Shown one piece after another: positions 3,177 to 51,369 of a stretch of 64,000 nucleotides of DNA. The notes under the pieces are model-generated. The model saw only the letters and a list, made by a program, of their open reading frames with translations. It was not told where the DNA came from and ran no database searches. The stretch is from an alpha proteobacterium SCGC AAA536-G10 (GTDB taxonomy: Bacteria > Pseudomonadota > Alphaproteobacteria > Puniceispirillales > Marisalimonadaceae), in assembly GCA_000384615.1 (NCBI GenBank), contig ARQU01000001.1, positions 1 to 64,000 of the forward strand, given 5' to 3'. Position 1 is the stretch's first letter. Every line of letters begins with the position of its first letter. Both the position numbers and the translations under genes were made by a program.

Positions 3177-3240
3177 AAACGTCTTTATATTTTGTCTCAT
3201 ATATGTAAGTAGTTGTCACTAATTAATAACGGGAAAAGTT

Positions 3241-7169: not shown

Positions 7170-7195
7170 AAATTTGTTAAAAGTTATTTAAAAAT

Positions 7196-8005
7196 TTATA
7201 TTGCATAAATACAAAAGTTATTCTCTTTAATATATGCCATTACTTTATTTAACTCTGCAATCAATGTACCCTTTGAGGATACAACAATAGAGCTGAAACG
7301 TAATTTTTTACATTTTTCAACTGTCTCTAATCCTATTACTGGTAAATCTAAATTAGTATTCTGGCCAATTTTAGGTATTTTAATTAGAACAGGTCCAAAG
7401 TCATAACGATTTTTATTATGGTTATATAAAATTCCAACTCTATCAATCATAGAGTTAGTTCCTTCTAATCCCTCAATTGCGTAAACAAGTTTATTATTTA
7501 CTACAACTGACTGACCAACATCAAATTTTGAAATTGTATTGAGTAGATCAACACCAAACTGACTACTTTTATAAACAAAATCTTTTAAATTTTGAGAAAA
7601 TAACTTTTCTTGATAAAAACCCTTTGGCATAAAGCAGCCTTTTAATATTGAACTAATTGGAAGTATTTTAAAACCATTTTTATTAAAAAAGTCCTGTATA
7701 TAATTTAAAGCTGAATTGTCTCCCACAGATATAATTTTATTTATCAATTCATTAGCTTTTTCGTTACTAATTTTGTCAAAGTTAGCAGGTCTTTCAATTT
7801 TACCTGCCATTACAATATGAGTTATATTGTTAGTTTTTAAGACGGTTAACCAACTAATAGGATCAAATAAAGAAACAATTTCGGACTTATTTTGAAATGA
7901 ATTAGGACAAGAATAATCTTTGATACACAATACAAAAACTTCTTTGTTTTGCGTTGCTATTTGTAATGGTAAATTACCACTACCTGCAATTATAGCAATT
8001 TTCAT
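7196..8005 (-). CDS. lpxI: UDP-2,3-diacylglucosamine pyrophosphatase LpxI
   Basis: LpxI hydrolyses UDP-2,3-diacylglucosamine to lipid X and UMP. It replaces LpxH in most alphaproteobacteria. The 269-residue protein opens with KIAIIAGSGNLPLQIA and ends with a domain carrying KIPKIGQNTNLDLPVIG, matching the DUF1009/LpxI catalytic domain, whose Asp is essential in Caulobacter. The start codon overlaps the lpxA stop by one base (TAATG), consistent with coupled translation. Its position between lpxA and lpxB supplies exactly the step needed between those two enzymes. Confidence 0.94.
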   Translation of the reverse strand: MKIAIIAGSGNLPLQIATQNKEVFVLCIKDYSCPNSFQNKSEIVSLFDPISWLTVLKTNNITHIVMAGKIERPANFDKISNEKANELINKIISVGDNSALNYIQDFFNKNGFKILPISSILKGCFMPKGFYQEKLFSQNLKDFVYKSSQFGVDLLNTISKFDVGQSVVVNNKLVYAIEGLEGTNSMIDRVGILYNHNKNRYDFGPVLIKIPKIGQNTNLDLPVIGLETVEKCKKLRFSSIVVSSKGTLIAELNKVMAYIKENNFCIYAI

Positions 8006-34200: not shown

Positions 34201-36438
34201 TTAGTTACCTTCGATAATTTTCAATACCTTTGGGGGTGACATCGGTAAACTATAAGATCTTTTTCCAATAGCTTGATATACAGCATTTGAAATGGCGGCT
34301 AAAGGTGGAACCAATGGAACTTCACCAACTCCTCTAACGCCTTGCGGATGTTTTGGGTTAGGAACTTCAATTAAAACTGTATCTAGCATAGGTAAGTCAG
34401 AACAAACTGGCATCCTATAATCAAGGAATCCTGTGTTATCCAAATGACCTTGTTTATTATAAATATACTCTTCACTCAAGGCCCATCCGATTCCTTGCGC
34501 ACACCCACCTTGCAGTTGACCTTCAACATAATCTGGATGAATAGCCTTTCCTACGTCCTGTATAGAAGTATATTTTTTCACTCTTACTATGCCTAAATCC
34601 ATATCAACTTCAACATCACAAATATGAGTTGCAAATCCGCCTTCAGCTCCTTCAGTATTCACTTGATAACCTGCACCAATAGGTCCTCCAGTAGCAGTAG
34701 CTTTGCCAGCCAATTCTGCTAAAGATAATGGATCAAATTTACCAGCATTGTCGCCAGCTGGACGAGCTTCACCATTTTCCCATTCAATAGCTTCTTCATC
34801 AATTCCCCAAATTTTAGCAGCTCTTTGCTTAAGTTGCTTAATTACTATTTTAGCAGATTCAGTTACAACCATTGCAGATGCAAATAAGACTCTACTTCCT
34901 CCAGTCAAATTACTATATCCAATGGTTGCTGTGTCTCCTATTAACACAGAAACTCTATCATGATGGATACCTAAAAGTTCAGCGGTAATATTTGCTATAG
35001 AAGCTCTAGAACCTCCAATATCAGGGTGACCAGTAGTAACAACTACATTTCCATCTTCTGTAATATTAAGTTGTGCACTAGATTCTCCGCCAGCATTAAA
35101 CCAAAATCCGCTTGCAACACCTCTTCCTTGATGCTTTTCTAGTTGGGACTTGTAGTGTGGGTGGTTTATTGCAGCATCTAGTGTTTCCATGTAACCCATT
35201 GTTGGATACGTTGGCCCATGTACAGCTTTGGTACCTTCTTTTGCAGCATTTAATTTTCTTAACTCAAGCGGACAAATTTTTAAAGCTTCTGCAATTTCAT
35301 CCAATACGCATTCAACGCCGTAAGCTCCAATTGGAGCTCCAGGCGCTCTATATGCTGCAACCTTACATCTGTTCGATACCACATCGTATCCAAATGTATG
35401 TGCATTAGGAATATCATATGGCGCTAATGAACACCCAACAGCACCCCTTATTGGAGATCCAGGAAATGCGCCAGCCTGAAGATAATATGTACCCTGAGCA
35501 GCTACAATCTTTCCATCTTTAGTAGCTCCGATTTTAATTTTACTTTTTGAGCCTGAAGTAGGTCCAGAAGCCCTCATTGTATCTTCTCTATTCATCACAA
35601 TTTTAACAGGACGACCTGTTTTTTGGGACAAAACTGTTGCTAAAGGTTCAAGATAAACAATAGTTTTACCACCAAAACCTCCACCAATTTCTGCTGGTAT
35701 AGCTCTTATATTACTTTGAGGAATACCTGTAAGAAAAGATGTCATGGCTCTTACCATAAATTGACCTTGACTTGAACTCCAAATAGTAGCTCTACCGTCG
35801 GCCGCTACACTTACAAGGCACGAATGAGTTTCTAAATAACCTTGATGGACGGCTTCTGTTTTGAAATCACGTTCTATAATAATATCGGCTTTTGCAAAAC
35901 CTTGTTCAATATCACCTTTTTTATGCTCTAGAGTACCAGCTATGTTAGACGGTTTATTATTAAATTTAATATGATCGTGTAGAATTGGAGCATCCGGTTT
36001 AATTGCGTCTTCAATATCAATGGCCCAAGGTAATATTTCATAATCTACTTCAATAAGCTTACATGCTTCTTCTGCTATTGCTTCTGTGGTAGCAGCTACT
36101 GCTGCTAGTGGGTGACCATGAAACAGTACTTTGTCTCTAGCCATAACATTTCTACACATCCAGCGCATATCTTGTATACCGAGAATTACAGGTTTATCTA
36201 ATGGAAAATCAACAATATCCTTAGAAGTAATTACAGCTTTAACACCGTCAATAGCTTCCGCTTTCTTTGTGTTAATCGATTTGATCTTAGCATGTGGGTG
36301 AGGGCTTCTTAATACATGTCCCCATATCATTCCAGGCATTGTAGTATCTGAAGAATACTGAGCTCTACCAGTTACTTTTTCTGCACCATCAGGTCTGACT
36401 GTGTTTTTTCCAATCCATTTATTACTAATCTCATTCAT
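34201..36438 (-). CDS. molybdopterin-binding large subunit of a xanthine dehydrogenase-family enzyme
   Basis: This is the catalytic subunit of a molybdenum hydroxylase (745 residues). The Ald_Xan_dh domain starts with VRPDGAEKVTGRAQYSSD. Mo-cofactor binding regions include EIGGGFGGK, AAYRAPGAPIGAYG and GHPDIGG, and the catalytic Glu lies in RGVGEVPLVPP. The loop AYRAPGAP is neither AYxCSFR (form I CO dehydrogenase) nor AYRGAGR (form II). The substrate is probably an aldehyde, purine-like or aromatic-CoA compound rather than CO. The small and FAD subunits follow in the normal order. The cofactor is made with the help of moaC/moeA at the start of the window. Confidence 0.92.
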   Translation of the reverse strand: MNEISNKWIGKNTVRPDGAEKVTGRAQYSSDTTMPGMIWGHVLRSPHPHAKIKSINTKKAEAIDGVKAVITSKDIVDFPLDKPVILGIQDMRWMCRNVMARDKVLFHGHPLAAVAATTEAIAEEACKLIEVDYEILPWAIDIEDAIKPDAPILHDHIKFNNKPSNIAGTLEHKKGDIEQGFAKADIIIERDFKTEAVHQGYLETHSCLVSVAADGRATIWSSSQGQFMVRAMTSFLTGIPQSNIRAIPAEIGGGFGGKTIVYLEPLATVLSQKTGRPVKIVMNREDTMRASGPTSGSKSKIKIGATKDGKIVAAQGTYYLQAGAFPGSPIRGAVGCSLAPYDIPNAHTFGYDVVSNRCKVAAYRAPGAPIGAYGVECVLDEIAEALKICPLELRKLNAAKEGTKAVHGPTYPTMGYMETLDAAINHPHYKSQLEKHQGRGVASGFWFNAGGESSAQLNITEDGNVVVTTGHPDIGGSRASIANITAELLGIHHDRVSVLIGDTATIGYSNLTGGSRVLFASAMVVTESAKIVIKQLKQRAAKIWGIDEEAIEWENGEARPAGDNAGKFDPLSLAELAGKATATGGPIGAGYQVNTEGAEGGFATHICDVEVDMDLGIVRVKKYTSIQDVGKAIHPDYVEGQLQGGCAQGIGWALSEEYIYNKQGHLDNTGFLDYRMPVCSDLPMLDTVLIEVPNPKHPQGVRGVGEVPLVPPLAAISNAVYQAIGKRSYSLPMSPPKVLKIIEGN

Positions 36439-36917
36439 TATGCAGTCTCCTTCATATCTTCAGCAACCTCAAGAACCGCTTTTACAATTTTATCATAACC
36501 AGTACATCTACATAAATTTCCAGCCAACCAAAATCTTACCTCAGTTTCAGTTGGTGATGGATTATGATCTAGCAGAGCTTTTGATGCCATCAGAAAACCA
36601 GGTGTACAAATACCGCATTGTAACGCTGCTTTTTCTAAAAATTTTTGTTGTAAGGCATGAAGCTTTCCACCTTCTGACATGCCTTCGATAGTCTCTAAAT
36701 TACTTCCCTCGGCCTCAGCGGCTAACATTAAGCATGAGCAGACAAGTTCACCATCTAAAATAATACTGCAAGATCCACAATCACCTGAGCCACAACTTTC
36801 TTTAGAACCTGTTAACTCTAATTGGTTTCTTAAAACATCTAGCATAGTGTCATGAGGTTCACATAGATACTCGACATTTTCATTATTAATTTTTGTTGAC
36901 ACTTGAATTTTAGCCAT
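36438..36917 (-). CDS. [2Fe-2S] subunit of the molybdenum hydroxylase
   Basis: This 159-residue iron-sulfur subunit relays electrons from Mo to FAD. An N-terminal plant-type ferredoxin domain has ESCGSGDCGSCSIIL and, later, ELVCSC. A C-terminal helical domain has the second cluster in LQCGICTPGF and NLCRCTGYDKI. All eight cluster cysteines are seen. Its stop overlaps the start of the large-subunit gene (ATGA-type contact) and it begins three bases after the FAD-subunit gene ends. Confidence 0.95.
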   Translation of the reverse strand: MAKIQVSTKINNENVEYLCEPHDTMLDVLRNQLELTGSKESCGSGDCGSCSIILDGELVCSCLMLAAEAEGSNLETIEGMSEGGKLHALQQKFLEKAALQCGICTPGFLMASKALLDHNPSPTETEVRFWLAGNLCRCTGYDKIVKAVLEVAEDMKETA

Positions 36918-36920
36918 AAG

Positions 36921-37790
36921 TTAATTTCCTTTAATTCTATTAATTGTAGTTAATGTTGCTCTTTTAAATAAAACACCAGCGACTTTAGTTCTGTAATCTA
37001 TAGTTCCTCTTTTGTCGTCAATAGGGTCGCATGAATCCATACAAATTTTTGAAACTTTATCTAAAATCTCAGAGTTAAGATCTGAACCAATCATTATTTT
37101 TGAAGCTTCTTTTATAAGGAGTGGCGTTGGAGCAACTGCGCCTAAAGAAACTCTAGCAGCAGTACAAACGTTATTTTCAAAAGTAATGTTAACTCCACAA
37201 CCTACAACAGCAATGTCCATTTCAGTTCTTGGTGTCATCCTCAAATAGGTATCAGAGGAGTGTATTTCACGTTTTGGAAATTTTAGGCTTACTAACATTT
37301 CTCCATTATTCAATACTGTTTTTCCAGGACCAATATGAAATTCTTCAATTGGTATCTCTCTTTTACCATTTGGTCCAGCTATTAAAGCCATACATCCAGC
37401 TGCAATCAATGCTGGAACGCTGTCACCTGCTGGAGATCCATTACAAATATTTCCACCTAACGAAGCTCTTCCTTGTATTTGTTCTGAACCAATTAGTCTA
37501 AAAGCTTCAAGAACACCTGGCCAAAGTTTAGAAAATTTCTTATTTCTATTTAAGTTAACACCTGACACAGAGGCACCTATCACAAATTCATTTTCTGATA
37601 TTTCTTCTATTGAATTTAGTTCAACTATTTTTTTTACATCAATAACTAAATTTGGTTTCCTAATCCCACTCTTAATTTGAACTAGTAAATCCGTACCTCC
37701 AGCTAAAAATCTAGCTGAACCATCTGCTTTTGAATGAGCGTTAACAGCTTCTTCAATTGTAGAGGCCGCTAAGTATTGAGTGTCTGACAT
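36921..37790 (-). CDS. FAD-binding subunit of the molybdenum hydroxylase
   Basis: This is the medium (CoxM/XdhB-like) subunit of 289 residues. The FAD-binding motifs ARFLAGGTDLLVQIKSG and SLGGNICNGSPAGDSVPAL are conserved, with a C-terminal CO-dehydrogenase flavoprotein domain from about residue 175 (TYLRMTPRTEMDIAVVG). It is first in the operon, with about 110 bases between it and a divergent EamA gene. Those bases must contain promoters for both sides; no clear operator was recognised. Confidence 0.94.
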   Translation of the reverse strand: MSDTQYLAASTIEEAVNAHSKADGSARFLAGGTDLLVQIKSGIRKPNLVIDVKKIVELNSIEEISENEFVIGASVSGVNLNRNKKFSKLWPGVLEAFRLIGSEQIQGRASLGGNICNGSPAGDSVPALIAAGCMALIAGPNGKREIPIEEFHIGPGKTVLNNGEMLVSLKFPKREIHSSDTYLRMTPRTEMDIAVVGCGVNITFENNVCTAARVSLGAVAPTPLLIKEASKIMIGSDLNSEILDKVSKICMDSCDPIDDKRGTIDYRTKVAGVLFKRATLTTINRIKGN

Positions 37791-37900: not shown

Positions 37901-38794
37901 ATGAAAATATTCACTAACGCACATTTTTTATTAACCTTAACGTCCTTGTTTTGGGCTTTCAATACAATTGCAGGCAGGGCAGCAGTAGATGAAGTTTCAC
38001 CATTGCTTGTAGTAAGCGTCAGATGGTTTTTTGTATCAATTTTATTAACTTTTTTATGTAGAAAAGAGTTATTTGAAACTTGGAAAGTTTTAAAATATAG
38101 ACTCAAATGGTTAGTTATAATGGGCTTGTTTGGTTTTACTAGTTTCAACTCTTTTTATTATATTGCCGCACATGATACTATAGCTATAAATCTAGGATTA
38201 GTTCAAGGTACTATGCCAGCTTTCATAATCATTATATCTAGAATTTGGTTAAAAGAAAAAATAAATATACCCCAACTAATTGGTGTAATCATTACGTTTG
38301 TTGCTGTTTTGTTAGTTGTAAGTTCAGGAAATCTCTATGCACTTATGAAACTTCAATTAAACAAAGGAGATATAGTGATGATATTTGCTTGTACTTTATA
38401 TGCTGTTTATGCTGTAGGGCTTAGAAAAAAACCAAAAATTGGAGCTTTAGTTTTACTTACATTCTTTTCGTATGTAGCATTTATTGGATCTTTACCTGGA
38501 TTATTTTATGAAACTTTTACTAGTAATTTAGTTTTGCCAGGTATAAAAGGTGTAATTATTTTAAGCATTATAATTATTTTTCCATCTTTTTTAGCGCAAA
38601 TATTTTTTATGAAAGGAGTTGAAAAAATTGGACCAGCAAGATCAGGACTTTATACAAACCTAGTACCTGTATTTGCTTCTATTTTAGCTGTTCTTCTTCT
38701 TGGTGAATTATTCAAATTGTATCACTTAATTTCTTTAATTTTAATTTTCTTAGGAATTTATATGTTTGAAAAAAAGAGAGATCAGGTTAATTAA
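37901..38794 (+). CDS. EamA/DMT-family transporter
   Basis: This ten-helix, 297-residue transporter has two EamA repeats (LTLTSLFWAFNTIAGRAAVD at the start, ARSGLYTNLVPVFASILAVL in the second half). It is divergent from the molybdenum hydroxylase operon. Such flanking suggests shared control or substrate, but this is not demonstrable here. Confidence 0.88.
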   Translation: MKIFTNAHFLLTLTSLFWAFNTIAGRAAVDEVSPLLVVSVRWFFVSILLTFLCRKELFETWKVLKYRLKWLVIMGLFGFTSFNSFYYIAAHDTIAINLGLVQGTMPAFIIIISRIWLKEKINIPQLIGVIITFVAVLLVVSSGNLYALMKLQLNKGDIVMIFACTLYAVYAVGLRKKPKIGALVLLTFFSYVAFIGSLPGLFYETFTSNLVLPGIKGVIILSIIIIFPSFLAQIFFMKGVEKIGPARSGLYTNLVPVFASILAVLLLGELFKLYHLISLILIFLGIYMFEKKRDQVN

Positions 38795-39038: not shown

Positions 39039-39245
39039 TTAATTATTTCTTTTGCAATTTAGTTGGTCAATAAGAGGATTATTAGGATCTATATCCTTAT
39101 TACATACTGAGCACTTATCTGATCCAGAAATTGCATTAAGACCACCACAACTGCCTTTAATGTTTTTACCCATTAACATTACACCAAGCGACATTAGTAT
39201 TATGATTATAGAGAGGAATATAAATGTTATAAAGAAAATTTCCAT
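39039..39245 (-). CDS. nqrM: Na+-NQR maturation protein NqrM
   Basis: NqrM (formerly DUF539) is needed for insertion of the iron centre between NqrD and NqrE. The 68-residue protein has one N-terminal transmembrane helix (FFITFIFLSIIIILMSLGV), the conserved IKGSCGGLNAI and a CSVC pair followed by one more Cys, the usual four-Cys pattern. It follows apbE on the same strand after 38 bases, and the nqr structural genes are just beyond. This matches NqrM by size, topology, cysteines and neighbourhood. Confidence 0.9.
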   Translation of the reverse strand: MEIFFITFIFLSIIIILMSLGVMLMGKNIKGSCGGLNAISGSDKCSVCNKDIDPNNPLIDQLNCKRNN

Positions 39246-39283: not shown

Positions 39284-40306
39284 TTACTTATTTAATTTTT
39301 TAAACTGGCTACTTTTAATTTTCAACAATTTATCTTCTACTTCATCCACAAACATAACAGCAATTTTTTCATTTTCTGCAACCTTTAATCCTACTTTACT
39401 TCCCATAGCAAGTAGTGCGGTTGCCCATCCGTCGGCACTCATTGCATTTTTATATACTACTGTAACTGACTTTGTTGAGTGTGTAATCGGCATCCCATTT
39501 TTAGGATTAATAATATGTGAATATTTTATTCCATTTTTTGAAAAGTTATTTTTATAATCACCTGAAGTAGCTACTCCTTTATTTGATACAGTAATAATCT
39601 CTTTGATCAACTTCTCATCTAATTTTGGATTTTCTATTCCAATTACCCAATCTGTATTATTTTTATTATGCCCTTTTACAAATATATCCCCTCCAATATC
39701 AATGATATAATTTTTTATATTTAGATCATCTAATGTTTTAGCAATAATATCTATTCCGTAACCTTTACCTATAGCTGATAAATTTAGTTTAATATCTTCA
39801 TTTTTTTTTAACAATTGATTTTTGGCATTAATATGTAGCAGTTTACTTTGATTAACTAAGGTTAGAGTGTCTTTTATTTTATCGTTACTTGGAACTCTCT
39901 CAATAGTGTTGTTTTCTGAATAACCAAACCCCCACAATTCTATCAATGGATCTAATGTTAAATCAAAATATCCATTACTTTTATCATTTATAATAATTGC
40001 CTCTTTGAAAACATTTATTAAATCATTAGAGATACTTATTGGTTCTGTAGTTCTATTGTTATTTAACTGGCTAATTTCTGAATTTTCATCCCAATTAGAT
40101 AAAATTTTATTAGCTTTAGACAAAGCATTTTTAATCTCTAATTGTAATTTTTCTTTCGTTATAGTTTTTGGAATGTCTACTAAACTTATTAAATAATAAG
40201 TACCCATAGTATTACCTTTAAGGTCAATATTATGACTTTTATTTTCAGCACATGATGATAATAAAAAATAAAAAATTATATAGATAAAAAAATTTAAGAA
40301 TGACAT
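39284..40306 (-). CDS. apbE: FAD:protein FMN transferase (lipoprotein)
   Basis: ApbE attaches FMN covalently to Thr residues of NqrB and NqrC. The 340-residue precursor has a lipoprotein signal peptide with lipobox LSSC at about residues 16-19, so it is anchored on the periplasmic side where the target threonines lie. Family motifs are NTMGTYYL, LNLSAIGKGYGID, YIIDIGGDIFVKG, HIINPKNGMP and MSADGWATALLAMG, with Mg-binding Asp/Thr residues. It is divergent from nqrA with 235 bases between them. Confidence 0.95.
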   Translation of the reverse strand: MSFLNFFIYIIFYFLLSSCAENKSHNIDLKGNTMGTYYLISLVDIPKTITKEKLQLEIKNALSKANKILSNWDENSEISQLNNNRTTEPISISNDLINVFKEAIIINDKSNGYFDLTLDPLIELWGFGYSENNTIERVPSNDKIKDTLTLVNQSKLLHINAKNQLLKKNEDIKLNLSAIGKGYGIDIIAKTLDDLNIKNYIIDIGGDIFVKGHNKNNTDWVIGIENPKLDEKLIKEIITVSNKGVATSGDYKNNFSKNGIKYSHIINPKNGMPITHSTKSVTVVYKNAMSADGWATALLAMGSKVGLKVAENEKIAVMFVDEVEDKLLKIKSSQFKKLNK

Positions 40307-40541: not shown

Positions 40542-41885
40542 ATGAAAAAATTCAAATTAAAAAAAGGTTTAGACTTACCTATAATGGGAATTCCGAAGCA
40601 AGTTATTAATGATATTGAACATCCTAGATCAGTTGCTGTATTAGGGCCTGAATACAATGGTCTTAAACCTAAAATGCTTATCAATGTTGGTGACAGTGTT
40701 GTTAGAGGTACCCCACTTTTTTGTCATAAAGACCATCAAAAAATTTTGTACGTGTCTCCTTGTAAAGGAAAAGTATCAGAAATTAATAGAGGCGAAAAAA
40801 GAGTTCTTTTAAGCGTTGTAATAGAAGTTGAGGATTTTGAGCATAAAGGAATAGCAATAACAAAATTACATACAAAGATTAAAAATAAGTCTGAATTTAT
40901 TAAAAATTGCTTGTTTGATAGTGGTTTATGGACTTCATTCCTAACAAGGCCTTATTCAAAGGTTCCAGCAAGTGATGCAAAACCTTCTTCAATTTTTGTT
41001 ACGGCTATGGATACTGAGCCGTTATGCCCAGACGCAGAATTAATTATTAGTAATGATTTAAAAGCTTTTAATGAAGGCGTCAAAAAGATTTCTTCCCTCA
41101 CAGATGGTAAGGTTTTCATTTGTAAAAAAGAAAATAGCAGTATTAAACTTAGTGAATTTGAAACATTCGAATTTGCAGGTCCACACCCCGCTGGTTTGCC
41201 AGGAACGCACATGCACTTTCTTGATCCTCCAAACTCTGACAAAACTGTATGGTCAATTGGCTATCAAGATGTTATAGCAATAGGTAAGTTATTTTCAACA
41301 GGCTTCATCGATATAGATCGAATTGTCTCAATTGCTGGGCCTCTTGCTAACAACCCAAGATTAGTTAAAACAGTTTTAGGCGCATCTTTAGACGACATAC
41401 TTGAGGGTGAATACCCAAAAACTGAAAATTGCAGAGTAATATCTGGTTCTATCCTGTCTGGATTTCATGCTATTGATGACTTAGCTTTTTTGGGAAAATA
41501 TTCTCGTCAAATAACAATTATAAAAGAAGACAAAGAAAAACATTTTTTTGGTTGGATTAAGCCACAACCTAGCAAATTTTCAGTAATGCCAGTTTTACTA
41601 TCAGCGTTTAGTTTTTTTAAGTTATTTAATTTAACATCAAATCTAAATGGAGGTAGAAGAGCAATGGTGCCGACAGGTGTCTTTGAAACATTAATGCCAC
41701 AAGATATATTACCTACCCAGTTATTAAGATCATTGTTGGTTATGGATACAGACGTTGCTCAGTCTTTAGGTGCATTAGAATTAGACGAAGAAGATGTAGC
41801 TTTATGTACTTTTGCTTGTCCTGCAAAATATGAATATGGTGTAGCTTTGAGAGAAAGTCTTCAAAAAATTGAGAAAGAAGGTTAA
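40542..41885 (+). CDS. nqrA: Na+-translocating NADH:quinone reductase subunit A
   Basis: NqrA is the cytoplasmic subunit that contributes to the quinone site of the Na+ pump. The 447-residue protein has the family opening FKLKKGLDLPIMG, the FAGPHPAGLPGTH motif and VIAIGKLFSTG. It is first of six tightly packed nqr genes (3-base gap to nqrB), so the 235-base AT-rich region upstream should hold the operon promoter. Confidence 0.97.
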   Translation: MKKFKLKKGLDLPIMGIPKQVINDIEHPRSVAVLGPEYNGLKPKMLINVGDSVVRGTPLFCHKDHQKILYVSPCKGKVSEINRGEKRVLLSVVIEVEDFEHKGIAITKLHTKIKNKSEFIKNCLFDSGLWTSFLTRPYSKVPASDAKPSSIFVTAMDTEPLCPDAELIISNDLKAFNEGVKKISSLTDGKVFICKKENSSIKLSEFETFEFAGPHPAGLPGTHMHFLDPPNSDKTVWSIGYQDVIAIGKLFSTGFIDIDRIVSIAGPLANNPRLVKTVLGASLDDILEGEYPKTENCRVISGSILSGFHAIDDLAFLGKYSRQITIIKEDKEKHFFGWIKPQPSKFSVMPVLLSAFSFFKLFNLTSNLNGGRRAMVPTGVFETLMPQDILPTQLLRSLLVMDTDVAQSLGALELDEEDVALCTFACPAKYEYGVALRESLQKIEKEG

Positions 41886-41888
41886 TTA

Positions 41889-43097
41889 ATGTCATTACGT
41901 AGTTATTTCAATTCTATTGAACCACATTTTGGAAGAGGTGGAAAATATGAAAAATATTATCCGATCTTTGAAATGGTTGAAACAATATTTTTTACAAGTA
42001 ATACTGTAACAAAGGTGGCGCCTCACGCAAGAAGTTTTGTTGATATGAAAAGAGTAATGACTTACGTCGTTATATCTACCATACCTTGCATATTGTGGGC
42101 TCTATATAATACTGGTTTTCAAACCAACACAGCTTTAGCTATAGTTGGTTCAAGTGGTGAAATAGGTTGGAGAATTGCTCTTTTAAAATTAACAGGAATT
42201 GGACTTGATCCACAAAGTCTATTATCAAACATTTCTCATGGCTTATTATATTTTCTTCCTATTTACCTAACGACTCTAATTGCAGGTGGTATATGTGAAG
42301 TCACGTTTGCTACAATAAGAGGACATGAGGTTAATGAAGGTTTTTTAGTTTCTTCTATGCTTTTCGCGCTAACTTTACCTGCATCTACTCCTTTATGGCA
42401 AGTTGCTCTCGGCATCGCGTTTGGAGTAGTTGTTGGAAAAGAGGTATTTGGAGGGACCGGTAAAAATTTCCTTAATCCTGCCCTTACTGGTCGTGCTTTT
42501 TTATATTTTGCTTATCCAGCGTACATGTCAGGTGACTCAATATGGACACCAGTAGACGGTTACTCATCTGCTACATCCTTAGGTATATCCGCTTCTGAAG
42601 GTTATGAAAGTCTTAGTAATTATGGAATAACATGGCTGGACGCATTTTTAGGTAACATTCAAGGATCATTAGGTGAAACTTCAACGCTGGCCATAGGTAT
42701 GGGGTTAGTGTTTCTTTTGATGACAAAAATAGCTAACTATAGAATGATAGTTGGATGTTTATTAGGTATGATAGTTTTTTCTTCTTTTTTAAATTGGGTT
42801 GGTTCTGATACTAACCCTATGTTTAGTATGCCTTGGTATTGGCATTTAGTGATTGGTAGTTACGCTTTTGGTTTAGTATTTATGGTTACAGAGCCAGTTT
42901 CTGCTAGCCATACTAATATGGGTCGTTACATTTATGGGGCTTTAATTGGTTTCATGGTTGTGATGATAAGAGTTTTAAACCCAGCATTTCCAGAGGGAAT
43001 GATGTTAGCAATTTTATTTGGAAATATTTTTGCTCCATTGATAGATCATTTTGTAGTAATGGCGAACATTAAAAGAAGGGCTAAATTTAGTGTCTGA
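41889..43097 (+). CDS. nqrB: Na+-NQR subunit B
   Basis: NqrB is the main membrane subunit, carrying covalent FMN, riboflavin and the Na+ path. The 402-residue protein has about ten helices. The FMN acceptor is Thr 229 in GYSSATSLG, matching the S/D-G-A-T flavinylation motif served by ApbE. Other conserved segments are FGGTGKNFLNPALTGRAF and MVTEPVSASHTNMGRYIYG. Its end overlaps nqrC by eight bases. Confidence 0.97.
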   Translation: MSLRSYFNSIEPHFGRGGKYEKYYPIFEMVETIFFTSNTVTKVAPHARSFVDMKRVMTYVVISTIPCILWALYNTGFQTNTALAIVGSSGEIGWRIALLKLTGIGLDPQSLLSNISHGLLYFLPIYLTTLIAGGICEVTFATIRGHEVNEGFLVSSMLFALTLPASTPLWQVALGIAFGVVVGKEVFGGTGKNFLNPALTGRAFLYFAYPAYMSGDSIWTPVDGYSSATSLGISASEGYESLSNYGITWLDAFLGNIQGSLGETSTLAIGMGLVFLLMTKIANYRMIVGCLLGMIVFSSFLNWVGSDTNPMFSMPWYWHLVIGSYAFGLVFMVTEPVSASHTNMGRYIYGALIGFMVVMIRVLNPAFPEGMMLAILFGNIFAPLIDHFVVMANIKRRAKFSV

Positions 43098-43881
43098 TTC
43101 AAATAATATATTTACAAAATTTAAAAATATGCCTGTCGATGGTATTGTTAAAACAGTTATAGTTGCAACTGCTTTATGTTTTGTTTGTTCTATGGTTGTT
43201 TCTTTTGCTGCTGTAAACCTTAAGTCTATACAAGAAGTTAATAAAGCAATTGATAAGCAAAAAAATATTTTACAAGTTGCAGGGGTTTATCATGAGGGTA
43301 TTGACGTAAATAAAACATTTTCTTCATTCCAACCATTGGTAGTTGACCTTAATAGTGGAAAGTTTACTGATAAATTTGACGCATCCATTTTTGATGATAA
43401 AAAAGCAGCTCAGGATCCGTTGCTCAGTATATCTCTAGAAAATGATCCTGCATCTATAGGTAGAAGAACTAATTATGCTACAATTTATCTTTTAAAAAAA
43501 GATGATGGATCTTTAGATAAAATTATTCTACCTATCCATGGATATGGTTTATGGTCTACATTATATGGCTTTATTGCATTAGAGAACAATCTAAATGATA
43601 TTTTTGGTCTTCAATTTTATCAACATGCTGAAACACCTGGTTTAGGTGCTGAAGTTGATAATCCTAAATGGAAAGCTCAGTGGAAAGGTAAAAAGTTAAA
43701 TAATGAAAATGGCGAATTAATGATACAAGTTGCTAAGACTCAAAAATATAAGGAACATCATATTGATGCATTAGCAGGTGCTACACTTACTTCTAATGGC
43801 GTAGATAATCTAGTGAAGTTTTGGATGGGTAAAGATGGCTTTAAAAAATTTCTTAATAATTTAAAAAATGGAGCGGCTTAA
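43090..43881 (+). CDS. nqrC: Na+-NQR subunit C
   Basis: NqrC has one N-terminal transmembrane helix ([20 protein letters not shown]) and a periplasmic FMN-binding domain. The covalent FMN Thr is residue 232 in [12 protein letters not shown]. Further family signatures are [14 protein letters not shown] and [11 protein letters not shown]. The GTG start overlaps the nqrB stop region, giving coupled translation. The next gene starts at the TAATG of its stop. Confidence 0.97.
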
Positions 43882-44534
43882 TGTCTCAGACTAGGAAACA
43901 ATTACTAGTTGATCCTTTAGTAGATAATAACCCTATAACTCTTCAGGTTTTGGGTATTTGCTCAGCTTTAGCAGTTACCTCTTCTTTAAATGTAGCTTTT
44001 GTTATGTCTTTAGCAGTAATTGCTGTTACGGGATTTTCGTCTTTATTTATCTCCTTTCTTAGAAATTATATTCCAAACTCCATAAGAATAATTGTCCAGA
44101 TGGTTATAATAGCTTCTCTTGTTATCCTCGTTGATCAAATAATAAAAGCTTATGCTTATGAAATATCAAAAACTTTATCCGTGTTTGTTGGATTAATAAT
44201 AACAAACTGTATTGTTATGGGAAGAGCAGAAGCTTTTGCAATGAAAAACACTCCTTTCAATTCTTTTGTTGATGGGATAGGAAATGGATTAGGCTATAGT
44301 TTGCTATTAATGTGCGTAGGGGTAGTACGAGAACTTTTTGGATCAGGTACTTTATTTGGAATAACCATTTTAGACCCAGTAAATAATGGTGGATGGTATG
44401 TTCCAAATGGTTTATTATTATTGCCTCCATCTGCTTTTTTTATAATTGGTTTTTTAATTTGGGGTGTGCGTTCCTGGAAGAAATCGCAAATAGAAGCTCG
44501 TGAGTATAAAATACAGTCATTAGAGGTTCATTAA
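43881..44534 (+). CDS. nqrD: Na+-NQR subunit D
   Basis: NqrD is a six-helix membrane protein that, with NqrE, forms the pore holding an iron centre. The two iron-ligand cysteines are present, in [10 protein letters not shown] and [13 protein letters not shown], and the two inverted half-helices of the family are recognisable. The 217-residue length is normal. Start and stop codons overlap nqrC and nqrE by one base each. Confidence 0.97.
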
Positions 44535-45142
44535 TGGAAGCCCTGATTTCATTAGCTGTTAAAGCAATATTTGTTGAAAATCTTGCACTTTCATTCTTTC
44601 TAGGTATGTGTACATTTATTGCTGTATCTAAAAAAATTTCTACAGCTATTGGTCTAGGCATTTCAGTAATGATAGTTCAATCCATAACTGTTCCTGCTAA
44701 TAATATTATATTATCGTATTTGCTTAAGCCTGGAGCACTTGCGTGGGCAGGTTTCCCTGATGTTGATTTGACATTTTTAGGATTGATATCCTATATTGGT
44801 GTTATTGCAGCATTAGTTCAAATTTTAGAAATGATATTAGACAAGTATTTTCCACCTTTATACAACGCATTAGGTATCTTTCTACCATTAATAACAGTTA
44901 ATTGCGCAATTTTAGGTGGTTCATTATTTATGGTTGAAAGAGACTATAATTTTTCTGAATCCATAACCTATGGAATAGCTTCTGGTTTTGGTTGGGCTTT
45001 GGCTATAGCTACAATGGCTGGCGTAAGAGAAAAGTTAAAATATAGTGATATTCCTGATGGTTTACAAGGTTTAGGTATCACATTCATTACTGCTGGATTA
45101 ATGGCTATGGCTTTTATGTGTTTTTCTGGTGTTAAACTTTAA
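44534..45142 (+). CDS. nqrE: Na+-NQR subunit E
   Basis: NqrE is the inverted partner of NqrD in the membrane. The 202-residue protein keeps the two conserved cysteines, in [13 protein letters not shown] and [14 protein letters not shown], which together with those of NqrD bind the intramembrane iron centre. [19 protein letters not shown] is another family signature. It is one base overlapped with nqrD and 12 bases before nqrF. Confidence 0.97.
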
Positions 45143-45154
45143 GGATTAAAATAA

Positions 45155-46375
45155 ATGGACACTTTTATTCTCGGTATAACTCTTTTTACAATGATCGTAC
45201 TGTCTTTGGTTTCAATAATTGTTATTGCTCGGAGTAAATTAGTTTCTTCTGGCGATGTTAACATTACTATTAATGGTGAAAAGACAGTCACAGTCCCTGC
45301 AGGTGGTAAATTATTACAAACATTAGCTGCTGAAAAACTTTTTGTACCCTCAGCATGTGGTGGTGGAGGTACTTGTGCCCAATGCAGAGTTAAAGTTCAT
45401 GCTGGTGGTGGATCAATACTCCCAACTGAACAAGGGCACATTAATAAAAGAGAAGCTTCTTGTGGTGATAGATTATCTTGTCAAGTTGCAGTCAAACAAG
45501 ATATGCAAATCGAAGTTCCAGAAGAAGTTTTCGGTGTAAGAAAATGGAGATGTAAAGTTCGAAGTAATAATAACGTTGCCACATTTATAAAAGAACTAAT
45601 ATTAGAATTACCAGAAGGTGAAGATGTAAATTTTCGAGCTGGTGGCTATATACAAATAGAAGCTCCAAAATATTCTTTGTCTTATAAAGACTTTGATGTC
45701 GATAAAGAATATCATGAAGATTGGGACAGATTTAAAATATGGGATTTCAATGCCGAAAGTAATGAACCTATTGAAAGAGCTTATTCAATGGCTAATTGTC
45801 CTGCCGAAAAAGGTATAGTAATGTTAAATGTAAGAATAGCGTCACCTCCACCAGGATCATCAGATATTCCTGCAGGTAAAATGTCCTCTTACATTTTTAA
45901 CTTAAAAGCAGGTGATGAAGTCGTAATATCAGGTCCTTTTGGTGAATTTTATGCCAGAGAAACTGATAAAGAAATGGTTTTTATTGGAGGTGGAGCTGGT
46001 ATGGCTCCAATGAGAAGTCATCTTTTTGATCAATTTAATAGAATAAAGACAAACCGCAAAGTTACATTTTGGTATGGTGCAAGATCAAAGAAAGAAATGT
46101 TTTACGTAGAAGACTTTGATAAATTAGATAAAGATAACTCTAATTTTAGTTGGCATGTTGCTCTTTCAGATGCAATGCCAGAAGATAAATGGGAAGGTCA
46201 TACTGGGTTTATACATAACGTATTGTATGAACAATATTTAAAAGATCATCCAGCTCCTGAGGACTGTGAGTTTTATATGTGTGGTCCTCCAATGATGAAT
46301 CAATCAGTTATAAACATGCTTCTTGACTTAGGTGTTGATAGAGAAGATATTATGCTAGATGATTTTGGCGGATAA
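45155..46375 (+). CDS. nqrF: Na+-NQR subunit F (NADH dehydrogenase)
   Basis: NqrF accepts electrons from NADH. The order is one N-terminal helix (1-26), a [2Fe-2S] ferredoxin domain with Cys 68, 74, 77 and 109 ([12 protein letters not shown] and RLSCQV), an FAD domain with [13 protein letters not shown], and an NADH domain with [14 protein letters not shown] and [11 protein letters not shown]. The product is 406 residues, the usual size. It ends the nqrA-F operon; no clear terminator follows in the 69 bases before the NuoL-like gene. Confidence 0.97.
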
Positions 46376-46444
46376 TTGTACAATAAAAGTTTATGTAATA
46401 AAAAATTATTAAAGTGTTTTGATTTCAAATGTTAATGTCATGAA

Positions 46445-48139
46445 ATGGAAATATTAATATTCATTTTCCCTTTACTGAGTTTTTTGACTTTTCAGTTTTT
46501 TGGTAGAATAAAGAATATAAAAATAATATATGCTTTGAATAGCTTTATTATGATTTTGTCTTTTGTTGTAAGTTTATATTTATTCTCAAAGTTATTAGGA
46601 TTAGAAAATGATTTACCACTTTATTTCTATTCAATTATAAAATCAGAATATTTTCTTCTAGATTGGTCTTTAAGGTTAGATTTATTTGTTTCGGGTTTGA
46701 TATTGATAATAAACTTTGTTGGATCTATATCCACAATATTTATTTTAAGTTTTTATAAAGAGCATAAAGTTAACCATGATATATTAAAGGGTTCATCACT
46801 TTTAATATTTGGTGCTTTAACTCTTGTAACATCCAATAACTTAATACAATTTTATTTGGGTTGGCAAATAATAATATTATCGTCTTATTTAATAACTAAT
46901 CTTTCAAAAAAACAAAATGATTTTCATAATAACGGTAATGTTTTTCTTTTTAACAGATTATCAGATTTAGGTATTTTTTTAAGTTTGTTCTTTCTTTACT
47001 CAAATACAAACTCATTTGATTTTGATGTAATCTTTGAAAGTCATTATCTAGCAAAAAATTATGAATCAAACTTATTAGATATAGAATGTTCAAATTTTGA
47101 ATTAATATTATTTGTTTTGTTTTTATCATTTTTATTAAGGTGCAAACAATTTTTTAAAAAAGATTCTACATACAACTTTTTAAAAATTAAATCTTCTACG
47201 TTAGCTCTATTATACTCTGGAATATATTTACCTTCTGGGATTTATTTTCTATTAAGATTTTTACCATTAACTCAGACATATTATAATTTTTTTAATATAA
47301 TTATTCTTCTAGGATTGATTTTAACAATAATTTTTACTTTTTTATTTTTTATTTCAAAAGATTTAAAAAGTTTAACCTTATACGTTGCTTCTTCTCAATT
47401 CGGTATAATAATTTTTTTAATTGGATTAAAAGCATACAATGGAGCTTTCTTTTATTTGTTGACCACAATAATATCTTTAACAATGCTTTTTTTAAGTTTT
47501 GCAATCATAATAATGAAATTGAATGGCGAACATCAAATAAATAAGATGGGATCGCTTATATTTAAAACACCTTCAACATTTTTATTCACATTAATTGGTT
47601 TCTTGTCATTAATTGGAATTCCTTTTTTCTCAGGATTTTACTCCAAAAAATTGATTTTTACTTCACTCTTATCAATTAATGACTCATTTATTATATTTGC
47701 CATAATTATATGTGTCTGTCATATATATTTATTATCATATACTTTATTAAAAAACATGTTGATTGTATTCTTTTGTCAAAACAATTGTAACATACATTTA
47801 TATAATAAAATTAATGAAAAAATGATGCTTACTAAAACTTTACTATTTGTATTGGCAATCTGTTTAATTTTCTCTGGTTGGTTATTAAATAATTTATTTT
47901 CTGGCTCAAACCCAGAGTATTTATGGAATTTAGTATTAAATGTACATTCAGATTTTTCTTTAAAACACGAAAATCAAATATTTGTCTGGTTTATAAAGTT
48001 AACAAATATTATTTGTTTATCAGCTATATTAATGTCTTTTTTAAATTATATTGTAATTCCCAAAATTGGAAATAATGTAAAAATAAAGCATAATAAGCTT
48101 TTTAAAAAATACTCATCCTTTCTGTCTCTTAATAGATAA
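46445..48139 (+). CDS. degenerate NuoL-like (complex I antiporter subunit) protein
   Basis: The 564-residue, roughly 14-helix protein aligns along its length with NuoL: ALTLVTSNNLIQFYLGWQ, NRLSDLGIFLSLFFLYSN and LIGIPFFSGFYSKK are the tell-tale segments. However, key proton-path residues are gone. The helix-5 Glu (GWE in normal NuoL) is Gln 141. The KSAQ Lys region reads LRCKQ near 231-235. The PTPVSALIHAATMV stretch is replaced by unrelated residues (about 249-263) although spacing is kept. No nuoM, nuoN or other nuo gene is nearby. It lies between nqrF and birA, where nuoN often sits in relatives. It is either a relic of complex I or a repurposed transporter. Confidence 0.8.
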   Translation: MEILIFIFPLLSFLTFQFFGRIKNIKIIYALNSFIMILSFVVSLYLFSKLLGLENDLPLYFYSIIKSEYFLLDWSLRLDLFVSGLILIINFVGSISTIFILSFYKEHKVNHDILKGSSLLIFGALTLVTSNNLIQFYLGWQIIILSSYLITNLSKKQNDFHNNGNVFLFNRLSDLGIFLSLFFLYSNTNSFDFDVIFESHYLAKNYESNLLDIECSNFELILFVLFLSFLLRCKQFFKKDSTYNFLKIKSSTLALLYSGIYLPSGIYFLLRFLPLTQTYYNFFNIIILLGLILTIIFTFLFFISKDLKSLTLYVASSQFGIIIFLIGLKAYNGAFFYLLTTIISLTMLFLSFAIIIMKLNGEHQINKMGSLIFKTPSTFLFTLIGFLSLIGIPFFSGFYSKKLIFTSLLSINDSFIIFAIIICVCHIYLLSYTLLKNMLIVFFCQNNCNIHLYNKINEKMMLTKTLLFVLAICLIFSGWLLNNLFSGSNPEYLWNLVLNVHSDFSLKHENQIFVWFIKLTNIICLSAILMSFLNYIVIPKIGNNVKIKHNKLFKKYSSFLSLNR

Positions 48140-48162
48140 AGTTTTTATAAAGGAAAAAATTT

Positions 48163-48903
48163 TTGTTTAATATTGATTTAAAAATATTAAAAACTTGTTC
48201 TAGTACTAACGATATAGCTAAAAATGAAGCCATTAAGGGTTCTTTAGAAGGAAGCTCCTATTTATCTTACTTGCAAACTAATGGAAGAGGCACGAATAAC
48301 AATAAATGGGAATCATTAGAAGGTAATTTATTTTTGTCGTCTATTTTTAGGCCAAAAAAGAACAAAATAAAATGGCACCAATTATCGTTGTTAATAGGAT
48401 ATTCAGTTCTACACACTTTAATTGATCTTGGTATTAATAGAAATAGTATTGAATTAAAGTGGCCAAATGATGTATTAATTAATAATAGGAAGATTTCTGG
48501 TGTTCTATTAGAAGCTTTTGATAATTTTATTATTGTAGGTATAGGCTTAAATATTTTAAAAACACCTAAGAATCAAACTAAATGGAAAACAACTAAATTA
48601 AATGATCATATTAAAAATAAAATGTCTTTAGAACAAATTTCTTATAAACTTTTAAATAAAATTTTTTATAATTATTATATTTGGCAAGATGAAGGATTTT
48701 TTTATTTCAAAAATAAAATTAATGATAATATTAAAAACAGACTAAAAACTATAAATTTAACTTTTAATTCATTTAAAAAACCAATAAAAGGTATTTTCTT
48801 AGGATTAGGAGACGATGGTTGTCTACAAGTTAAGGTTGGAAACAGTATTTTTGACTATTATTCTGTTGAAACTATTTCTTTCCCGTCAGATGATTCGTCA
48901 TGA
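48163..48903 (+). CDS. birA: biotin--[acetyl-CoA-carboxylase] ligase
   Basis: BirA activates biotin with ATP and attaches it to the biotin carrier domain. The 246-residue protein lacks the N-terminal DNA-binding domain of E. coli BirA, so it is a ligase only. Motifs are CSSTNDIAKNEA, NGRGTNNNKWES (the adenylate-binding GRGxxxxxW loop), KWPNDVLINNRKISGVLLE and IIVGIGLNI. It starts at TTG. It overlaps coaX by four bases, and the birA-coaX-rnj order is conserved in alphaproteobacteria. Confidence 0.94.
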   Translation: MFNIDLKILKTCSSTNDIAKNEAIKGSLEGSSYLSYLQTNGRGTNNNKWESLEGNLFLSSIFRPKKNKIKWHQLSLLIGYSVLHTLIDLGINRNSIELKWPNDVLINNRKISGVLLEAFDNFIIVGIGLNILKTPKNQTKWKTTKLNDHIKNKMSLEQISYKLLNKIFYNYYIWQDEGFFYFKNKINDNIKNRLKTINLTFNSFKKPIKGIFLGLGDDGCLQVKVGNSIFDYYSVETISFPSDDSS

Positions 48904-49694
48904 TTTTAGCTATTGATTGTGGAAACACAAATACTGTTTTTGCATTGTATTCTTATAATAAAAATATAAGACAAGAAGGTTGTTGGAGAATTAATAATAA
49001 CTCCAAAAGGACTGCGGATATTTACTACCCTTGGTTATTACAAATGTTAAATTTATCAAAATTTGGATTGAAAGACATAACCGGTGTATGTATTGCATCA
49101 GTAGTTCCTGAAACACTTTTGAATATCAAAACATTAATAAAAAAATATTTCAATGTTAAGTCATTTGTTGTTGGAGAAGATAACTTCAGCATAGGAATAA
49201 AAGTTAACATTGATAATCCAAATGAAGCGGGTGCTGATCGTTTAGTAAACTCTTTTGCGGCAGGAAAATTAAATTTATCTCCAGCAATTATAATTGATTT
49301 AGGAACAGCTACGACTTTTGATTTAGTTGGAAAAGACGGAAGCTATAATGGAGGTATTATTGCTCCTGGAGTTAATTTATCATTGGAAGCCTTATATTTA
49401 GCAGCAGCAAGGCTACCTAGAATTTCTTTGAAACCATTGACTGATATTAATGAAATTATTGGTAAAAATACCATAAATGCCATGGAATCAGGCATATTTT
49501 GGGGTTATGTTTCGATGATTGAAGGTTTGATAAATAAAATTAAATCTATTGATCAATTTTCTGATTATAAAGTTATAGCCACAGGTGGATTAAGTCATTT
49601 ATTTAAAGTTTCTATAAAATCCATCGATCTAATAATTGAAGATTTGATTTTAATTGGACTAGTAAAATTATTTCTAAAAAACAACCCTATATAA
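48900..49694 (+). CDS. coaX: type III pantothenate kinase
   Basis: CoaX phosphorylates pantothenate in the first step of CoA synthesis and, unlike CoaA, is not feedback-inhibited by CoA. The 264-residue protein has the ASKHA phosphate loop AIDCGNTNTVFALY, the substrate region NEAGADRLVNSFAA, IIDLGTATTFDLV and TGGLSHLF. It overlaps birA by four bases and precedes rnj by 19. Confidence 0.96.
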   Translation: MILAIDCGNTNTVFALYSYNKNIRQEGCWRINNNSKRTADIYYPWLLQMLNLSKFGLKDITGVCIASVVPETLLNIKTLIKKYFNVKSFVVGEDNFSIGIKVNIDNPNEAGADRLVNSFAAGKLNLSPAIIIDLGTATTFDLVGKDGSYNGGIIAPGVNLSLEALYLAAARLPRISLKPLTDINEIIGKNTINAMESGIFWGYVSMIEGLINKIKSIDQFSDYKVIATGGLSHLFKVSIKSIDLIIEDLILIGLVKLFLKNNPI

Positions 49695-49713
49695 GTAATT
49701 AGAAAGTTATTAA

Positions 49714-51369
49714 ATGTATTGGAAAAAATCTGATTTATTGTTTTTACCTGTTGGTGGCTCCGAAGAAATAGGTATGAATGCAAACCTATATCATTATGAA
49801 GATAAATGGATTTTAATAGATTTAGGCATTTCATTTCCTGACGAAACTGATTTAGGTATAGATATTTTATTACCAGATTTTGAATTTATCAAATCTTTAG
49901 GAGATAAATTTTTAGGTATTTTTTTAACTCATGGTCATGAAGATCATATAGGGGCTATACCTTATTTTGCAGATGATATTACCTGTCCTATCTGGGGTAC
50001 TTCATTTACTATGGCTTTATTAAAAAGAAAACTTAAAGAAAATAATAAAGAAAAAAAATTAAAATTAAATATATTAACTATAAATGAACAATTTAAAATT
50101 GGTCCTTTTCAAATAAAGGCCATTAAAACATCACACTCAATTCCTGATCCGGTTTCTATATTAATTTCTACAAAAGCAGGAAACATCTTTCATTCGGGAG
50201 ATTGGAAGTTAGAAAAATCGATTAACCTCGATGAAAAAACTAATCTAGAAAATTTTCGTTCATTAGGTACAAATGGAATATTAGCAATGGTCTGTGATTC
50301 AACTAATGCTTTAGTAAATGGAAGAACCCCATCTGAAAATTTTGCATATGAGGGTTTGTTAGATATTATTAAAAATAGAAAAGGTACTATCCTTGTAACA
50401 TGTTTTTCTTCAAATATTAGTAGAATTAAGTCACTCTTAGATATTGCTCTGAAAACTGACAGAACAGTCCTAGTAGTAGGGAGGGCTTTGTTAAGAGCTA
50501 TTGATGCTGCAAAAGAAGTTGGATTTTTAACAGATATTCCAGATTTATTGTCTTTAAAGGATTTAAGCCTAATTCCAAGGTCAAATGTTCTTATAATTTC
50601 CACAGGTTCACAAGGAGAACCAAATTCGGCATTATCTAGAATTTCTAAGGATATGGATAAATTTATAAAACTTATTAAAGGTGATACAATAATATTTTCT
50701 AGTAGAAAAATTCCAGGAAATGAAAATGCAATCTTAAAAGTTCAAAATAGATTTCTCGAGAGGGGTATAGAAATAATTACAGATGATGATAAAAATGTTC
50801 ATGTGTCCGGACACCCGTCAAGAGATGAGTTAATAGAGATGTACTCATATATTAAACCTAAAATTTCTATACCTGTTCATGGAACCAGAGAACATATTGA
50901 AGCACACGCAGATCTAGCGAGTAATTGTCAAGTGCCAAATATTATAAAACCAAAAAATGGAGAAATTATTAAATTAAATGCAAACACACCAAATGCAATA
51001 TCTAAAATTGATTTTACTACACATGTATTTGACGCAGGCGAAATAATACCAATTAATAATGATAGGTTCACAACTAGGAGACATTCTTTATGGAATGGAT
51101 TTGTTACTATTTCTATCGTCATCAATAAAGATGGATACCTCGTTATTACTCCGCAAATATCTCAAATAGGTGTGTCTGATAGTAGTATTGTAGAGAATGT
51201 TTTAATCGATTTATCTCTTAAAATAGAGGATTTTATAGAAAATATATCTTCTTTTAAAGAAATGTTAGATCAAGAACTTGTTAATCAAATTTCAAAATTA
51301 GTTAAAAGAGAATTCAAGTTAACTTTTTCTAAAAGACCGATAGTCAAAGTCCATGTTAATAGAGTTTAG
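49714..51369 (+). CDS. rnj: ribonuclease J
   Basis: RNase J is a metallo-beta-lactamase-fold RNase with 5'-3' exonuclease and endonuclease activities, used for RNA maturation and decay. The zinc motif LTHGHEDHIGAIPYF, SHSIPDPVSI, FHSGDWKLE and VSGHPSRDEL are visible, with the beta-CASP insertion (SSNISRIKSLLDIA) and a C-terminal domain from about residue 450. The 551-residue length is normal. Confidence 0.95.
   Translation: MYWKKSDLLFLPVGGSEEIGMNANLYHYEDKWILIDLGISFPDETDLGIDILLPDFEFIKSLGDKFLGIFLTHGHEDHIGAIPYFADDITCPIWGTSFTMALLKRKLKENNKEKKLKLNILTINEQFKIGPFQIKAIKTSHSIPDPVSILISTKAGNIFHSGDWKLEKSINLDEKTNLENFRSLGTNGILAMVCDSTNALVNGRTPSENFAYEGLLDIIKNRKGTILVTCFSSNISRIKSLLDIALKTDRTVLVVGRALLRAIDAAKEVGFLTDIPDLLSLKDLSLIPRSNVLIISTGSQGEPNSALSRISKDMDKFIKLIKGDTIIFSSRKIPGNENAILKVQNRFLERGIEIITDDDKNVHVSGHPSRDELIEMYSYIKPKISIPVHGTREHIEAHADLASNCQVPNIIKPKNGEIIKLNANTPNAISKIDFTTHVFDAGEIIPINNDRFTTRRHSLWNGFVTISIVINKDGYLVITPQISQIGVSDSSIVENVLIDLSLKIEDFIENISSFKEMLDQELVNQISKLVKREFKLTFSKRPIVKVHVNRV

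Follow-up and report, generated by a model that had tools for sequence, protein, structure and literature searches.

A NuoL-derived orphan membrane protein beside the Na+-NQR operon of SAR116 Alphaproteobacteria, a probable relic of complex I replacement

NuoL-type proteins outside complex I

NuoL-type proteins also occur outside complex I. One is DabB/MpsA, the NuoL-like component of inorganic-carbon uptake by DAB or Mps systems, and subunits A and D of Mrp antiporters belong to the antiporter domain family PF00361. Closest to the locus studied here are the SAR116 genomes LGC2-C and LGC2-D, in which nuo is replaced by nqr and a nuoL lies immediately adjacent to nqr; the nqr most closely related to theirs is that of HTCC2181, from which the adjacent nuoL is absent (PMC8547437). 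This nuoL is almost surely the gene described below, the location of which is therefore already in print. The accessible parts of that paper name the gene nuoL and make no mention of changed residues, selection or absence from lineages. The literature searched, mostly papers outside subscription and available in part, gives no account of a dismantled proton path in this protein, of selection on it or of its loss. New here are four nqr genomes of two lineages that lack the gene and have nqrF joined to birA.

The window, which is the whole stretch of 64,000 nucleotides analysed, comes from the alphaproteobacterium SCGC AAA536-G10, a SAR116 genome to judge from its relatives, and encodes a putative membrane protein, hereafter X, in that position (Table 1). 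Like NuoL/ND5 (TIGR01974), which provides its best family and structure matches, X has a similar hydropathy and keeps the TM6 Arg-Asp pair and the LRxD and GIPxFSGxYS-type segments. Unlike NuoL/ND5, it scores at about half the family cut-off, lacks NADH5_C, has the relay Glu/Lys/His/Lys replaced and belongs to a genome in which no NuoD or NuoH was found. X resembles DabB/MpsA in being a NuoL-type protein outside complex I, but the DabA partner (PF10070) was found in 0 of 41 genomes, the window genome included, so that we reject this identity; no partner was found there for the carbon-transporter role that the initial annotation had considered. Antiporter domain PF00361 is shared with Mrp subunits A and D; however, a mrp-type operon is located elsewhere in the genome (contig C4) and its three proteins are parted from X and NuoL in the tree, and an Mrp identity is likewise rejected. 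That operon (L005, 5022-12347; mrp names assigned from translations) encodes three antiporter-type proteins of 497, 485 and 570 amino acids and no long MrpA-sized protein.

Table 1. Features of the window around X
Feature	Position	Strand	Basis
EamA-type transporter	37901..38794	+	PF00892; 60-61% identity in L167, L168, L169; left flank common to same-family nuo genera
NqrM match, beside apbE	39093..39182	-	PF04400 above cut-off, E 1.6e-6
apbE, divergent from nqrA	39284..40306	-	ORF; PF02424 E 6.4e-80; synteny conserved
nqrA	40542..41885	+	ORF 447 aa; three NqrA Pfam domains
nqrB	41889..43097	+	ORF; PF03116 E 1.1e-95
nqrC	43090..43881	+	ORF 263 aa, GTG start; FMN-binding PF04205; name from operon order
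nqrD	43881..44534	+	ORF 217 aa; PF02508; D vs E by operon order
nqrE	44534..45142	+	ORF 202 aa; PF02508; D vs E by operon order
nqrF	45155..46375	+	ORF 406 aa; Fer2, FAD- and NAD-binding domains
X, NuoL-derived orphan membrane protein	46445..48139	+	ORF 564 aa; NuoL-family best matches below cut-off; conserved in place across SAR116 relatives
birA	48163..48903	+	PF03099; right flank common to nuo-bearing relatives
coaX (type III pantothenate kinase)	48900..49694	+	PF03309; synteny
rnj (ribonuclease J)	49714..51369	+	ribonuclease J domains; synteny

X and the slot of the nuo operon

The X frame starts with ATG, runs for 564 codons with zero internal stops, and lies 69 bases after the end of nqrF (46375) and 23 bases before birA. 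The initial annotation had described a full-length NuoL-like ORF, alone between nqrF and birA-coaX-rnj. Its position is borne out by neighbours checked against Pfam, and its frame is indeed open, but its length is not preserved: X proteins have 559-565 amino acids where the open frames of true NuoL have 642-655, and NADH5_C (PF06455) is absent in 4/4 X proteins scanned, whereas a control SAR116 NuoL (L022) has this domain. The two best family models are TIGR01974 (NuoL, 216.6 bits) and PRK06590 (201.4 bits), with weaker matches to PRK08668 ('NADH dehydrogenase subunit M', 90.4 bits) and TIGR01972 (NuoM, 59.6 bits); among the best 25 of 39 families, Mrp models reach at most 63.5 bits. Four X proteins miss the TIGR01974 cut-off of 407.5 bits (216.6, 211.4, 208.3 and 187.7), and the control scores 808 bits. 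In Pfam, the window protein is above the cut-off of PF00361 and two of the four X proteins scanned just pass that of PF00662; the control has all three NuoL domains. A profile search of solved structures places complex I NuoL/ND5 chains at the top (8qby_L 'NADH dehydrogenase subunit L', E 1.8e-68), with MrpA at best at E 5.5e-21. Aligned hydropathy profiles of X and NuoL correlate at r = 0.835 (against a maximum of 0.266 over 482 circular shifts), which we treat as supporting only because alignment tends to pair hydrophobic stretches. The G+C content of X is 22%, versus 29% for the window.

Genes for apbE and NqrM adjoin nqr. ApbE is the flavin transferase that matures NqrB and NqrC, and NqrM is a Na+-NQR maturation protein; their presence led us to drop the idea of X as a stand-in maturation factor. 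In the single-cell genome AAA536-K22 (L083), the nqrA and nqrE matches are both split in two (3009-4350 and 7002-7680), through a frameshift or assembly error. A site scan found nothing terminator-like in the nqrF-X gap and one such match within X at 47899-47917, against 0.4 expected. Upstream of the EamA-type gene, the region 34201-37790 encodes three molybdenum hydroxylase-like subunits (xanthine/CO dehydrogenase type), named from translations alone.

Same-family genera with complex I (L167, L168, L169) have the order EamA-nuo-birA-coaX-rnj, and the window clade has EamA-apbE/nqrABCDEF-(X)-birA-coaX-rnj. NuoN lies directly before birA in 5/5 nuo loci that reach birA (those three, L069 and L071), and all five NuoN proteins are above the TIGR01770 cut-off; the count omits slices L068 and L070, which end short of birA. 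Since NuoN adjoins birA and the flanks are shared with nuo-bearing relatives, X sits in the old nuo slot. Two premises of the initial annotation thus hold true: in these order-mates the nuo operon ends with nuoN before birA, and in the window clade nqrABCDEF occupies its position.

Genome counts support the scar of complex I replacement proposed in the initial annotation. In a sample of 41 genomes, many of them incomplete (52-99%), none of the 25 genus genomes, including that of the window, showed NuoD or NuoH, each of which was found in 15 of 16 order-mates; NqrB was found in 17 of 25 versus 0 of 16. No nuo operon was found elsewhere in the window genome (G000, 90% complete; NuoD and NuoH searched). 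Across the 136 genomes of the order, NqrB is encoded by 28/40 genomes of genus g1, 2/2 of genus g284 and 0/94 others, and NuoD by 74/94 others versus 1/42 in g1 plus g284. The single exception, G432, has a listed contamination of 5, and its other, full-size NuoL (L165), which places outside the order, beside another lineage (100/100), is treated as contamination on this placement. On L165 (contig C68 of G432), matches to birA, coaX and rnj come after nuoL and two further antiporter-type matches, and this piece is probably contamination. A full-strength SdhB-type match (PF13085, E < 1e-30) is present in 21/25 genus genomes and was not found in the window genome (90% complete); genus LGC2-C is reported to be without complex II (PMC8547437).

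In the phylogenetic tree, which includes 16 of 25 available class NuoL rows and excludes L030 for its many unread residues, X forms one clade (100/100) within NuoL. NuoL plus X is split (100/99) from seven paralogues comprising NuoM, NuoN and the genome's three mrp-type proteins, with a long-branch warning on this split; X thus groups with NuoL and not with the mrp-type proteins, in agreement with its original assignment. The sister of X has little support (43/0) because the X branch is very long and its composition biased. A clade of X plus SAR116 NuoL is not rejected by an AU test of 27 rows without the contaminant L165 (p-AU 0.84; log-likelihood 17.5 above the free search), and is rejected with 40 rows including it (p 2e-7 and 3e-4). 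Judged from synteny, X most likely descends from the nuoL of its own family.

Residues, distribution and selection

We compared 15 X proteins with 12 NuoL proteins of the order, mapping sites by motif; E. coli numbering of Glu144, Arg175, Asp178, Lys229, His254, Lys305, Lys342 and Glu359 is as in PMC13358369. Every compared residue is kept in 12/12 NuoL. Four core relay sites, Glu144, Lys229, His254 and Lys342, are kept in 0/15 X. Specifically, the Glu144 site (TM5) is Tyr in 9, Gln in 5 and His in 1; the Lys229 site (TM7, KSAQ) is Arg in all 15; the His254 site (TM8) is Leu in 9, Phe in 3, Tyr in 2 and Ile in 1; and the Lys342 site is Leu in 12 and Val, Phe and Thr in 1 each. The reported change of the helix-5 Glu to Gln141 in the window protein is confirmed, as is the loss of the PTPVSALIHAATMV segment of NuoL, which is replaced in X. 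The KSAQ Lys has also gone, but rather than being plainly lost it has become an invariant Arg (Arg232 in the window). Further replacements affect sites that we take to correspond to E. coli His338 (Ser 13, Thr 1, Phe 1), Lys399 in helix TM12 (Asn 10, Lys 4, His 1; the window protein keeps Lys401) and Asp400 (Gln 7, Lys 6, Thr 1, Glu 1). Kept in X are the TM6 Arg175/Asp178 pair (15/15; Arg171/Asp174 in the window), Glu359 (14/15), Lys305 (11/15) and the site presumed to be His334 (9/15). Mutation of a conserved lysine abolishes function, and substitution of Glu144 in subunits L and M has effects, according to work cited in PMC3046159. From the replaced relay residues, we infer that X would be unable to work as a NuoL proton module. 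A partial ion path is possible, given Lys401 and the uptake-side Lys308 and Glu362 sites, the latter two retained by the window protein as by most X.

X also has invariants of its own. Of its 78 invariant columns, 35 keep the NuoL-invariant residue and 43 do not; the latter comprise 17 at which each family has its own invariant residue and 26 at which NuoL varies. That X is a relic under selection without pumping is, in our view, highly probable. Our best explanation, on which we are evenly divided, is that this non-pumping relic of nuoL may be kept as a non-conducting accessory membrane protein beside NQR. Its main rival, which we judge unlikely, gives X no useful job: since an isolated NuoL might let ions leak, selection would strip its protonatable residues and keep the expressed fold sealed, with deletion following by chance. 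The four relay sites lost in every X and the hydropathy preserved along the protein would fit this idea as well, although the 43 columns in which X has set its own or different invariants would not.

A search of genome contigs for X relatives returned 18 loci, comprising 14 SAR116, two alphaproteobacterial and two weak, far matches, and the two weak non-SAR116 matches (L088, L089) were set aside. Full-length X occurs in 16/136 order genomes, all nqr-bearing and in genus g1, always in the order nqrF-X-birA and without inner stop (16/16), one with a TTG start. Four genomes carry X pieces at contig ends (G003, G009, G019, G433), the TAG that seems to interrupt the frame in G433 being its normal stop, and four carry the first codons, read by eye (G013, G015, G023 without the usual ATG, and G434 with TTG). 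Contigs thus end inside X in 8/24 X-bearing genomes, seemingly above the contig-count expectation. X is kept in 24/28 informative nqr-clade genomes; four nqr genomes end too early to judge (G001, G011, G022, G439), and in the remaining g1 genomes neither nqrB nor X was found. In the four informative genomes without X, G424 and G425 (g284) and G440 and G431 (g1), nqrF is joined to birA with 68-102 bases between. A tree built from 13 neighbouring proteins pairs G424/G425 with X-bearing G432/G433 as sister groups (98/100) and unites G431 with G440 on a branch of their own (100/100), so that X presence must have changed at least twice. The change count alone cannot separate gain from loss, but because X is in the place of nuoL and forms a single clade, two losses from an X-bearing ancestor are most simply assumed. 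Among the matches listed from a class-wide search of 385 sampled genomes, none other from the genus, there was no further X (window X 840 bits; next best 264 bits, with a frame of 640 amino acids, the length of NuoL), and the viral contigs searched held no X relative.

The clean absence of X from two lineages would suit a gene kept only to avoid harm, but a useless 1.7-kb gene in small genomes would be expected to be broken or lost more often than the retention in 24/28 genomes and 16/16 open frames indicate. The distribution bears equally on a second alternative, in which Na+-NQR binds X as an accessory or assembly subunit. Its place directly 3' of nqrF in 16/16 genomes, the restriction of full-length X to a nqr-bearing genus and the nqrF-X gap without a terminator-like site are consistent with such binding; four genomes carrying nqr without X, the maturation already supplied by apbE and NqrM, and the far slower evolution of nqr make it improbable. 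Absence from 4/28 informative genomes excludes an obligatory Na+-NQR subunit, and the accessory role named in the initial annotation is not supported if X is taken to be required. X is therefore dispensable, and the X-free nqr operons suggest that NQR works without it.

Distant X pairs are saturated for dN/dS, hence closer pairs were used. Omega is 0.17-0.26 in five unsaturated pairs (dS 0.25-0.50), for which the likelihood comparison with omega = 1 yields 2dlnL values of 60-88; at dS 1.5-2.5, omega in three more pairs is 0.066-0.098. Seven pairs of true NuoL give 0.020-0.083, nqrB and nqrF 0.011-0.038, and birA 0.064-0.186. X is thus relaxed compared with NuoL, as a fold kept merely harmless would also be, and close to its fastest neighbour, birA, yet it is clearly constrained. 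At about 0.2 and not 1, the ratio supports the original view of selection over simple decay, and together with the full-length frames it leads us to reject a pseudogene.

Compared with four close relatives, X shows only 67-69% identity and NqrA-F show 93-99%. Against L072 and L073, DNA identity of the window is 92-97% over 37.4-45.8 kb, 74-81% across X and 91-95% near 50.7 kb, with a second fall to 79-89% that starts well outside X, near 53.6 kb. At four-fold sites, divergence amounts to 0.42-0.46 in X versus 0.09-0.34 in flanking genes. On this pattern, the interval 46400-50650 looks like an X allele swapped in by recombination. Such divergence, the absence of X from some lineages, and the TM12 Lys and uptake-side residues that persist in some X could fit a novel transporter or channel for ions, or else a determinant in the membrane that varies (e.g. 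a phage or bacteriocin entry point), but this is very unlikely given the lost core relay residues, the lack of a partner such as DabA, omega below 1 in each X pair examined (whole-gene pairwise) and an allele pattern that may be due to recombination alone, identity also dropping beyond 53.6 kb.

Possible role of X and its meaning

In our reading, the lineage's nuoL stayed put while nqrM-apbE/nqrABCDEF took the place of all remaining nuo genes from EamA to birA. Its proton relay was dismantled: the Glu-Lys switch is gone, and the permanently charged Arg232 may pair with the kept Asp174, leaving an antiporter fold that would no longer relay protons. X is perhaps made with NQR from one transcript. 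It may, tentatively, act as a scaffold for a complex of the inner membrane or help to stabilise one, a service of use to most lineages and yet dispensable; its fast evolution compared with nqr gives little reason to expect a tight NQR interface. Ion leakage control or a new role, as suggested in the initial annotation, may also apply. We hypothesize, with some doubt, that an antiporter subunit could have outlived complex I by being sealed, its Glu-Lys switch exchanged by selection for a fixed Arg-Asp pair and its other core relay sites cleared, and by taking a new job beside Na+-NQR as a non-conducting membrane protein.

One slot in one marine family displays stages of the replacement: nuo intact, nqr with a relay-dead NuoL, and nqr alone. 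If the hypothesis is true, the sealed X proteins would form a natural series of pump-dead NuoL folds, and X-bearing and X-free lineages offer natural comparison pairs. The locus raises the questions of what use an antiporter-like subunit has outside complex I and of whether cells can tolerate a lone NuoL only in sealed form.
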